Made by a program: the position numbers and the translations under genes. A model generated the notes under the pieces. It saw only the letters and a program-made list of their open reading frames with translations, was not told where the DNA came from and ran no database searches. From assembly GCF_018135625.1 (NCBI RefSeq), contig NZ_CP073078.1:4992501-5056500 (forward strand): DNA of 64,000 nucleotides, in the 5' to 3' direction. Position 1 is the stretch's first letter. The number at the start of each line of letters is the position of its first letter. Origin of the DNA: Phenylobacterium montanum. GTDB taxonomy: Bacteria; Pseudomonadota; Alphaproteobacteria; Caulobacterales; Caulobacteraceae. This document shows positions 2,920 to 6,731 of this stretch, piece by piece.

Positions 2920-4335
2920 TCAGGCTGTGCGCGTCAGCCAGTTGAACCGGGCGACCATGGCCGTCGCCGCGGCCGCCAGGCCCGCCGCCAGGCCGATCCA
3001 GACGCCCAGGCCCTGCATGTGCAGCCAGACACCCAGAACGACGCAGATCGGCGCTCCGACCAGCCAGTAGGCCGCGCCGGCCAGCAGCATAGGCGTCCGC
3101 GCATCCTTCAGGCCGCGCAGGGACATGGCCCCCACCACCTGCAGGGCGTCGAACACCTGGAAGGCGGCGGCGACCTTGAGATAGAGGGCGGCCAGCCCCA
3201 GCACCTTCAGGTCGTCGGCCGTGCGCCCGCCCAGATAGAGGCCGGCGATCTGACGCCCGGCGACGATCATCAGAAGGCCGCACAGCATCATGAAGCCGGC
3301 CCCGACGCTCAGGGCCACGAAGCCCGCCCGGCGCACGCCATGGGCGTCGCCGCGGCCGGCCGCGTGGCCGACCCGGACCGTCGCCGCCATGGCCACGCCC
3401 AGGGGGACCATGAAGGTCACCGAGGCGAAGTTCAGGGCGATCTGGTGCGCAGCGACTGGGATGGCGCCGAAGGCGCCCATCACCAGGGTCATGGCGTTGA
3501 ACAGCATGGCCTCGAAGATCATGGTCATGCCGATCGGCATGCCCAGCCGGAACGCCTCGGTCAGCCGCGCCCAGGCCGGCCTGAGGAACCGGCGGAAGAT
3601 GCGATAGGCCCGCAGCGCCGGGTTGACGCTGATCACCACCGCCAGCGCCAGGAATGCGAATACCGCTGATGACGCGGTCGCGATCCCCGATCCGCGCAGG
3701 CCCAGGGCCGGGAGGCCGAAGTGGCCGAAGATCAGGGCGTAGTCGGCCAGGGCGTTGTAGCCGATGCTGATCCCCATCACCCAAAGCGTGGCGCGCGGAT
3801 GGCCAAGCGCGGTGGCGAAGTTCCTCAAGACCTGGAAGCCCAGGGCGAAGAACAGGCCAAAGCTCAGCATGCTGACGAACTGTCCGGCGCCGGCGGCCAG
3901 CTGCGGCTCCTGATGCAGGGCGAGCAGGATCGGCCGCGCCGACCACAGCAGCACCGTCAGGGGCAGGGTCAGCATGATGCAGGCCCAAAGGCCCATGCGC
4001 ACGGTGGCGCGGACCTTGGCGCGGTCGAAGGCCGCCTCGCCGGCGATATGGGCGATCATCGGGGCGATCGCCGCCGGCGGGCCGGAGCCGACCAGCCAGG
4101 CGAAGTAGTAGACCGTGTTGCCGATCGCGGCGGCGGCCAGGGCCGTTCGGCTCAGCCGGCCCAGCATGACGATGTCGGTGGCCAGGATCGCCATCTGGGC
4201 CAACTGGGTCAGCACCAGGGGCGCGGCCAGGCGGATCAGGGCGCGGCCTTCCGCCGCCCACAGGGCCGCGCGCCCCGGCGCGTGGCGGGGGGCCTGGTCT
4301 AGGGTCTGGACAGGGGCTTGCATGAGATGGGTCAC
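2920..4335 (-). CDS. MATE family multidrug efflux transporter
   Basis: 471 residues with about twelve membrane helices and the two-halved layout of the MATE family (NorM-like): an N-terminal LAAPLVLTQLAQMAI segment and a matching second half starting near LGMPIGMTMIFEAMLFN. Such pumps export cationic drugs or metabolites using Na+ or H+ gradients. A GTG at 4335 or an ATG at 4323 can start it; neither has a strong ribosome site. The 3' end faces the GtrA gene across 21 bases. Upstream on the same strand lies a 311-base leader with a short ORF and an intrinsic terminator ending about 55 bases before the start, which suggests attenuation or a break from the MacAB operon. Confidence 0.9.
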   Translation of the reverse strand: MTHLMQAPVQTLDQAPRHAPGRAALWAAEGRALIRLAAPLVLTQLAQMAILATDIVMLGRLSRTALAAAAIGNTVYYFAWLVGSGPPAAIAPMIAHIAGEAAFDRAKVRATVRMGLWACIMLTLPLTVLLWSARPILLALHQEPQLAAGAGQFVSMLSFGLFFALGFQVLRNFATALGHPRATLWVMGISIGYNALADYALIFGHFGLPALGLRGSGIATASSAVFAFLALAVVISVNPALRAYRIFRRFLRPAWARLTEAFRLGMPIGMTMIFEAMLFNAMTLVMGAFGAIPVAAHQIALNFASVTFMVPLGVAMAATVRVGHAAGRGDAHGVRRAGFVALSVGAGFMMLCGLLMIVAGRQIAGLYLGGRTADDLKVLGLAALYLKVAAAFQVFDALQVVGAMSLRGLKDARTPMLLAGAAYWLVGAPICVVLGVWLHMQGLGVWIGLAAGLAAAATAMVARFNWLTRTA

Positions 4336-4389
4336 GGGCTTGGCTTTTTTGGGGTCTGGCCGAGCCGGGAACGCCTGAGCGGGGACATG

Positions 4390-4423
4390 AAAAACCCCTC
4401 CGAAGCGGCCGGCTCGGGAGGGG
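4390..4423 (-). terminator. Intrinsic terminator before the MATE gene
   Basis: On the minus strand a perfect CCCCTCC / GGAGGGG stem encloses a 15-base GC-rich loop and is followed directly by TTTTT. It lies 30 bases after the stop of the short ORF and 55 bases before the MATE start. It either ends the ATP-grasp/MacAB transcript or is the off-state of an attenuator for the MATE gene. Confidence 0.8.
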
Positions 4424-4452
4424 CGGAAGCGCCAGATCGCGGTTTGCTGATC

Positions 4453-4536
4453 CTAGGCGGTGGTCTCCTCTCGAGCGCAACGGGCGCACAGGGCGCCTTC
4501 AAGCGCCACGGGGCCCGGTCGCGATGAAATGCTCAT
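4453..4536 (-). CDS. Possible 27-residue leader peptide
   Basis: ATG to TAG encodes MSISSRPGPVALEGALCARC followed by AREETTA. It sits between the macB-like gene and the terminator ahead of the MATE gene. Most of its GC-rich middle lies in alternative hairpins, and it contains a Cys-Ala-Arg-Cys-Ala-Arg run, as one would want for a stalling leader peptide. There is no good Shine-Dalgarno before the ATG, though leaderless or weak starts occur in this group of bacteria. It could equally be a chance ORF. A remoter possibility is a small substrate peptide for the neighbouring ATP-grasp/MacAB genes. Function is not established. Confidence 0.35.
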   Translation of the reverse strand: MSISSRPGPVALEGALCARCAREETTA

Positions 4537-4646
4537 CTGATTGGTCACGGTCGGCGAAGCTCGCTGCCAATGCGGGCTCCATGCCCGCGAGAGGCGAAAT
4601 TGCTAGCCCGGCTTCGGCGCGAAGTCAAACCGCGCGAGTCGGGTTT

Positions 4647-6731
<2,085 letters not shown>

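Follow-up and report, generated by a model that had tools for sequence, protein, structure and literature searches.

A putative translation-sensing attenuator with a fifth RNA arm upstream of a MATE efflux gene in Phenylobacterium montanum and related Alphaproteobacteria

The window, a stretch of 64,000 nucleotides from the genome of Phenylobacterium montanum (contig NZ_CP073078.1, positions 4,992,501 to 5,056,500), carries a MATE efflux gene (2920..4335, strand -; Pfam MatE 9.6e-48, NCBIfam TIGR00797). The gene starts with the GTG at 4335, and the same position holds ATG or GTG in relatives. Upstream of it, on the same strand, are a macB-like and a macA-like gene. The gap of 311 nt between the macB stop codon (4649-4647) and the MATE start contains the leader that we describe here; all of its features are on the - strand and are given in window coordinates.

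A dedicated promoter is predicted at 4600..4628 (TTGACT at 4628-4623, 17 nt, TAGCAA at 4605-4600), beginning 18 nt past the macB stop codon. Its position is conserved in relatives: in 66 of 68 leaders, TTGAC-N17-TA precedes a short upstream open reading frame (uORF) at an almost fixed distance. With a promoter of its own after macB, the leader is more than the 3' end of the macAB transcript. The preliminary description had raised the question of a promoter downstream of the terminator; none was found there by a strict scan, which detected no sigma-70-like site in 4200-4900. The same scan also misses the conserved upstream promoter, because its -10 element deviates from TATAAT, reading TAGCAA here and in many cases TACCCA in relatives. 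A 5' hairpin (GCGGGC-ATGGA-GCCCGC, 4572..4588) is located close to the predicted transcript start; its counterparts in relatives are, as judged by eye, inverted repeats with other letters.

The uORF (4453..4548; MTNQMSISSRPGPVALEGALCARCAREETTA, then the stop codon) comprises 31 codons. It had been described as an ORF of 27 codons starting at ATG 4536; its frame, its TAG at 4455-4453 and its CARCAR run stand, and the start is placed at GTG 4548, the start position shared by relatives. In 61 of 68 leaders an ATG or GTG stands 20-28 codons upstream in this frame with no intervening stop (other frames: 4/68 and 8/68), and the stop falls on the same codon in 57 of 68, with TAG, TAA and TGA interchanging. 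The leader ORF is thus conserved in frame, start and stop, and its translation is predicted. The sequences around the uORF start (GACCGTGACCAATCAGATG, 4534-4552) and the MATE start (GCCCGTGACCCATCTCATG, 4321-4339) resemble each other as if one were a copy of the other.

The conserved end of the uORF is AREExxA-stop, which is kept because its codons are an RNA segment (segment B, below). The CARCAR run, whose Cys/Arg codons had been taken as a possible signal, is peculiar to this genome among the compared leaders, and in the aligned uORFs no series of codons for a single amino acid is conserved. Codons 2-16 of six close pairs differ at positions 1, 2 and 3 in 15, 25 and 18 cases, and the changes are 33 non-synonymous and 11 synonymous in this small sample. 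On these few pairs the peptide shows no sign of purifying selection and does not appear to be conserved beyond the demands of the RNA. With the Cys/Arg run found only here and a peptide that changes freely, stalling specific to an amino acid or peptide is unsupported. Two leaders (L051, L104) have uORFs that reach segment B in another frame with the RNA segments kept, which fits position sensing.

RNAfold of the window leader predicts a GGCGC/GCGCC hairpin in the middle of the uORF (4492..4507), possibly a pause hairpin; by eye, similar hairpins are present in relatives. This hairpin (4507-4492) exists as the preliminary description had it, but the relevant alternative pairings are A:B, B:C, C:D and C:E, which lie partly outside that ORF. 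Segment A (GCGAGC, 4559..4564) occupies the position of the uORF ribosome site and pairs with segment B (GCTCGAGAGGAG, 4465..4476), which consists of the last uORF codons, is nearly invariant in relatives and pairs with A or C. Segment C (CCCCTCCCGAGC, 4412..4423), likewise near-invariant, is the 5' arm of an intrinsic terminator and the partner of B, D and E; the 3' arm is segment D (GGAGGGG) with its U-tract (4390..4401). The terminator was correctly recognized at the outset, with its 7-bp stem (CCCCTCC/GGAGGGG, 4423-4417 / 4401-4395) and TTTTT (4394-4390) 55 nt before the MATE GTG, and a terminator scan returned 3 sites against 0.5 expected. Bases 3' of the U-tract (4390-4381) are partly kept, reading TTTTTTGTATC in both families of relatives. 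A short frame at 4333-4388 begins with an ATG after the U-tract (GGAGGGG-TTTTTC-ATG) and ends in a TGA that overlaps the MATE GTG start. This frame (GGAGGGGTTTTTCATG) was rejected as a second uORF, as its frame and end vary among relatives.

For 60 leaders, the duplex energies of segments from the same species were set against those of 2000 permutations in which species were exchanged. The observed mean was reached by 0/2000 permutations both for A:B (z -6.0) and for C:E (z -12.1), statistics that take no account of phylogenetic relatedness and are inflated by it; controls on the same sequences (three combinations of flanking segments) gave no permutation signal. Nor was there a signal for B:E or C:spacer pairing. 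B:C, whose two segments are complementary and predicted to pair in all leaders, has a mean of -17.0 kcal/mol against -10.1 kcal/mol when shuffled and is too invariant to covary. Covariation of C:D and C:E was counted on an alignment of 46 leaders: C:D is paired in 97.8% of cells, with 7 double-changed against 1.5 in shuffled data, and C:E in 91.2%, with 27 against 5.9, slid versions being far lower.

Compensating changes can be followed in single leaders. Segment B changes from GCTCG to GCCCG and segment C from CGAGC to CGGGC in L055 (T-A to C-G), with L107 as the G-U intermediate; B, C and D are changed together in L104 (a triple change); and A and B compensate each other in L139, L148, L149 and L100. 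A:B is weak in the window copy, with only about five pairs. The kept frame, start and stop and the competing stems with their compensatory changes bear out the architecture of ribosome-mediated attenuation that had been proposed for this leader. Loss of the U-tract, with uORF, B, C and E kept, was observed in L055, L104, L107, L101, L102 and L113, the last of which has also lost D.

Segment E (CCGGCTCGG, 4360..4368) is located between the terminator and the MATE start and is predicted from the permutation and covariation tests to pair with CCGAGCCGG (4417-4409) in the read-through transcript. On this comparative evidence C:E is the best-supported helix of the leader. The 3' end of E lies 21.9 +/- 2.5 nt before the MATE start (54 leaders), and six lineages without a U-tract retain C:E. 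Sequestration of the MATE ribosome site, as in erm/cat systems, was not found: the start is outside C:E and no less accessible when C:E is formed, its opening costing 8.4 kcal/mol with C:E and 10.2 kcal/mol with B:C. E is transcribed later than the terminator and so has no simple way of deciding termination. C:E is taken as the form of the read-through mRNA, in which E may have a translational role.

Of the 299 genomes of the family searched with the macB-MATE gap region (blastn, E<=0.01), 73 contain homologous leaders, some 25 being convincing, so the elements observed here are not due to chance. A MATE orthologue (59-75% identity; tblastn) is immediately 3' of nearly all strong matches, and across relatives the leader co-occurs with MATE and not with macB. 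A covariance model built on the B-to-D part found more leaders in the family, in a second one and in Parvibaculum sedimenti. The leader precedes an orthologous MATE gene (about 50-75% identical) in Caulobacteraceae, in the second alphaproteobacterial family and in Parvibaculum. The second family appears to be Micropepsaceae, an assignment based on L044, a locus labelled Rhizomicrobium whose leader is of the same type; the MATE protein of Parvibaculum sedimenti, which has the leader, is 50% identical. MATE genes of the class that are less closely related (up to 47% identity) yielded no leader. Certain MATE orthologues of Caulobacteraceae (L035-L039, 60-64% identity) are without it, which indicates that the leader can be lost. 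Weak model matches before non-MATE genes in Caulobacteraceae resemble ordinary CCCTCC/GGAGGG terminators and were discarded. Plasmids gave no blastn match to the leader, and Rfam gave no covariance-model match in the whole window at the gathering threshold; a permissive search of the leader region returned only a chance microRNA (E 1.6). Comparison of genomes shows the leader to be real and conserved.

Folds were modelled for 53 leaders up to the U-tract and for 68 leaders as RNAs truncated after C; the latter were modelled because minimum-energy folds lack a clean switch, for which reason purely thermodynamic switching was rejected. With the RNA ending at C and a ribosome in codons 1-17, the B:C probability exceeds 0.4 in at least 65 of 68 leaders and has a mean of 0.84-0.88. 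All 53 leaders fold into C:D when a ribosome occupies the stop codon; 51 of 53 do so with no ribosome, and A then holds B in 44 of 53. At equilibrium up to the U-tract, a stalled ribosome yields B:C in only 5-7 of 53 leaders and C:D wins in most. Since C:D beats B:C at equilibrium, the switch needs kinetic, co-transcriptional control, in which B:C would have to form first and then be displaced slowly. In the window copy, the fold cut at C contains B:C even when no ribosome is present; this and its short A:B make the no-ribosome state of this copy uncertain.

We interpret the leader as a ribosome-mediated transcription attenuator of the trp type, the signal for which would be slow translation and not a particular amino acid, and put the probability of this reading at about three in four. 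The promoter, the uORF, A:B, the B:C complementarity, C:D and C:E are each supported by comparison among relatives. The promoter just after macB would produce a leader RNA with the 31-codon uORF. With translation running normally, B would be covered by the ribosome that has reached the stop codon, C:D would form and transcription would stop at the U-tract. With no ribosome, A (the uORF ribosome site) would hold B in most relatives, again leading to C:D and termination. A ribosome delayed within the first half of the uORF would cover or bypass A and leave B free; B would then pair with C once C is made, D would stay unpaired, and RNA polymerase would continue into the pump gene. Once the read-through mRNA is complete, C could pair with E in a hairpin ending some 22 nt before the MATE start codon. 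Such a switch would report the position of the ribosome and not which amino acid is missing. We infer the order of these co-transcriptional events and the read-through outcome from the modelled folds; the inducers would be translation-inhibiting drugs, and any role of E is putative.

Other explanations of the same features were weighed. The leader directly follows macB (stop 4649-4647) on the same strand, and its hairpin might merely be the terminator of the macAB operon, with the short ORF accidental; the promoter between macB and leader (66/68), the association with MATE instead of macB, and the conservation of the uORF frame and the stems make this very unlikely. That the structured 5' leader with its terminator is a ligand-binding riboswitch is barely credible, given a conserved reading frame, the lack of an Rfam match and the lack of a conserved unpaired core outside the pairing segments. 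Amino-acid attenuation or a specific arrest peptide, by which Cys/Arg codons or the nascent peptide would stall the ribosome, could draw on the CARCAR run, on the conserved AREE and on a hydrophobic N-terminal stretch with loose similarity among several relatives. It is nevertheless improbable: CARCAR is not conserved and no run of a single amino acid is present, amino-acid changes in codons 2-16 outnumber silent ones (33 to 11), the uORFs of L051 and L104 end in another frame, and segment B accounts for AREE.

Two further alternatives were considered. The uORF could control translation of the pump, as in the erm/cat or toiL type, with C:E as the regulated helix and possibly Rho-dependent termination behind it; the strength of the evidence for C:E, its fixed distance to the MATE start and its persistence without a U-tract speak for this explanation. 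We consider it unlikely, as the MATE start is outside C:E and slightly more open when C:E is formed, and terminator and U-tract are kept in most leaders. Rho-dependent attenuation, with a C-rich element uncovered when the uORF is translated, has an alphaproteobacterial precedent in the translation-sensing DUF1127 uORF leader of Sinorhizobium meliloti (PMC12218461) and would suit the lineages without a U-tract, but it is quite unlikely for a leader whose intrinsic terminator shows compensatory changes and whose four-segment pairing is absent from the description of DUF1127.

A second attenuator type was observed in several loci (L181-L191, L121, L122; e.g. L187:426-4359). It has a uORF of about 30 codons with a different end (several end in AHGSxLA-stop or similar), a TTGAC promoter of its own and a terminator with the same C/D arm (CCCTCCCGAGC.../GGAGGG-TTTTT). 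This sister leader, which the B-to-D covariance model matches in the second family, precedes Y-RNA-like sequences, a Ro-like gene and RtcB; in many cases the MATE leader is a few kb away. Between the sister leader and the Ro-like gene of L187 there are three Rfam YrlA matches (1060-1169, 1343-1418, 1467-1587), which at 30-34 bits (E 3e-5 to 4e-4) are below the cut-off (gathering score 69); they are possibly divergent Y RNAs upstream of the Ro-like gene. We tentatively suggest that both leaders represent one undescribed five-segment translation-stress attenuator module, used at least twice in Alphaproteobacteria, for the MATE pump and, in genomes resembling Micropepsaceae, for the Y-RNA-like/Ro/RtcB cluster of RNA repair, which is often a neighbour of the pump; slowing of the ribosome would switch on drug export and RNA repair at once, and E would reshape the read-through mRNA. 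The sister leader fits the idea of a translation-stress response, and together with the fifth arm it raises the question whether RNA repair and efflux belong to one such response.

If the preferred reading, a trp-type attenuator that senses slowed translation, is correct, a switch made of RNA only makes the expression of a widespread chromosomal MATE pump in environmental Alphaproteobacteria depend on the speed of translation. A response of the pump to drugs that hit the ribosome would then be explained without a dedicated drug-binding regulator, and a Gram-negative MATE example would be added to a mechanism described for Gram-positive transporters.

The trp attenuator of Escherichia coli has a translated leader ORF, four segments that pair 1:2, 2:3 and 3:4, and an intrinsic terminator; early stalling in the leader ORF frees the antiterminator. 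The MATE leader resembles it in its predicted translated ORF, in A:B, the predicted B:C and C:D, which correspond to 1:2, 2:3 and 3:4, and in its intrinsic terminator. Unlike trp, it has no run of control codons, precedes a drug pump instead of biosynthetic genes, and has a fifth arm, E, that follows the terminator and pairs with segment 3.

No description of the MATE leader was found in the open-access literature, the part of the literature searched. Expression of the multidrug ABC transporter of Bacillus subtilis bmrB-bmrCD depends on ribosome-mediated transcription attenuation, involves a translated uORF together with alternative stem-loops, and is induced by protein-synthesis inhibitors (PMC4191407); going by its description, this system is set apart as a Gram-positive ABC transporter with a different leader. 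The DUF1127 leader of S. meliloti is, like the MATE leader, an alphaproteobacterial uORF leader; it reports translation status, tetracycline raises its read-through, and RNA structure can mask its uORF ribosome site (PMC12218461). In contrast to the MATE leader, it is Rho-dependent with a C-rich element in codons 3-10, has no described intrinsic terminator switch and does not serve a pump. The toiL uORF of E. coli toiL-topAI senses several classes of ribosome-targeting drugs via the stall site, start codon included (PMC12121999), but acts through occlusion of the topAI ribosome site, backed by Rho termination. Set beside these systems, the MATE leader is apparently a previously undescribed attenuator of a known general kind, with a predicted signal and output and a new fifth arm.
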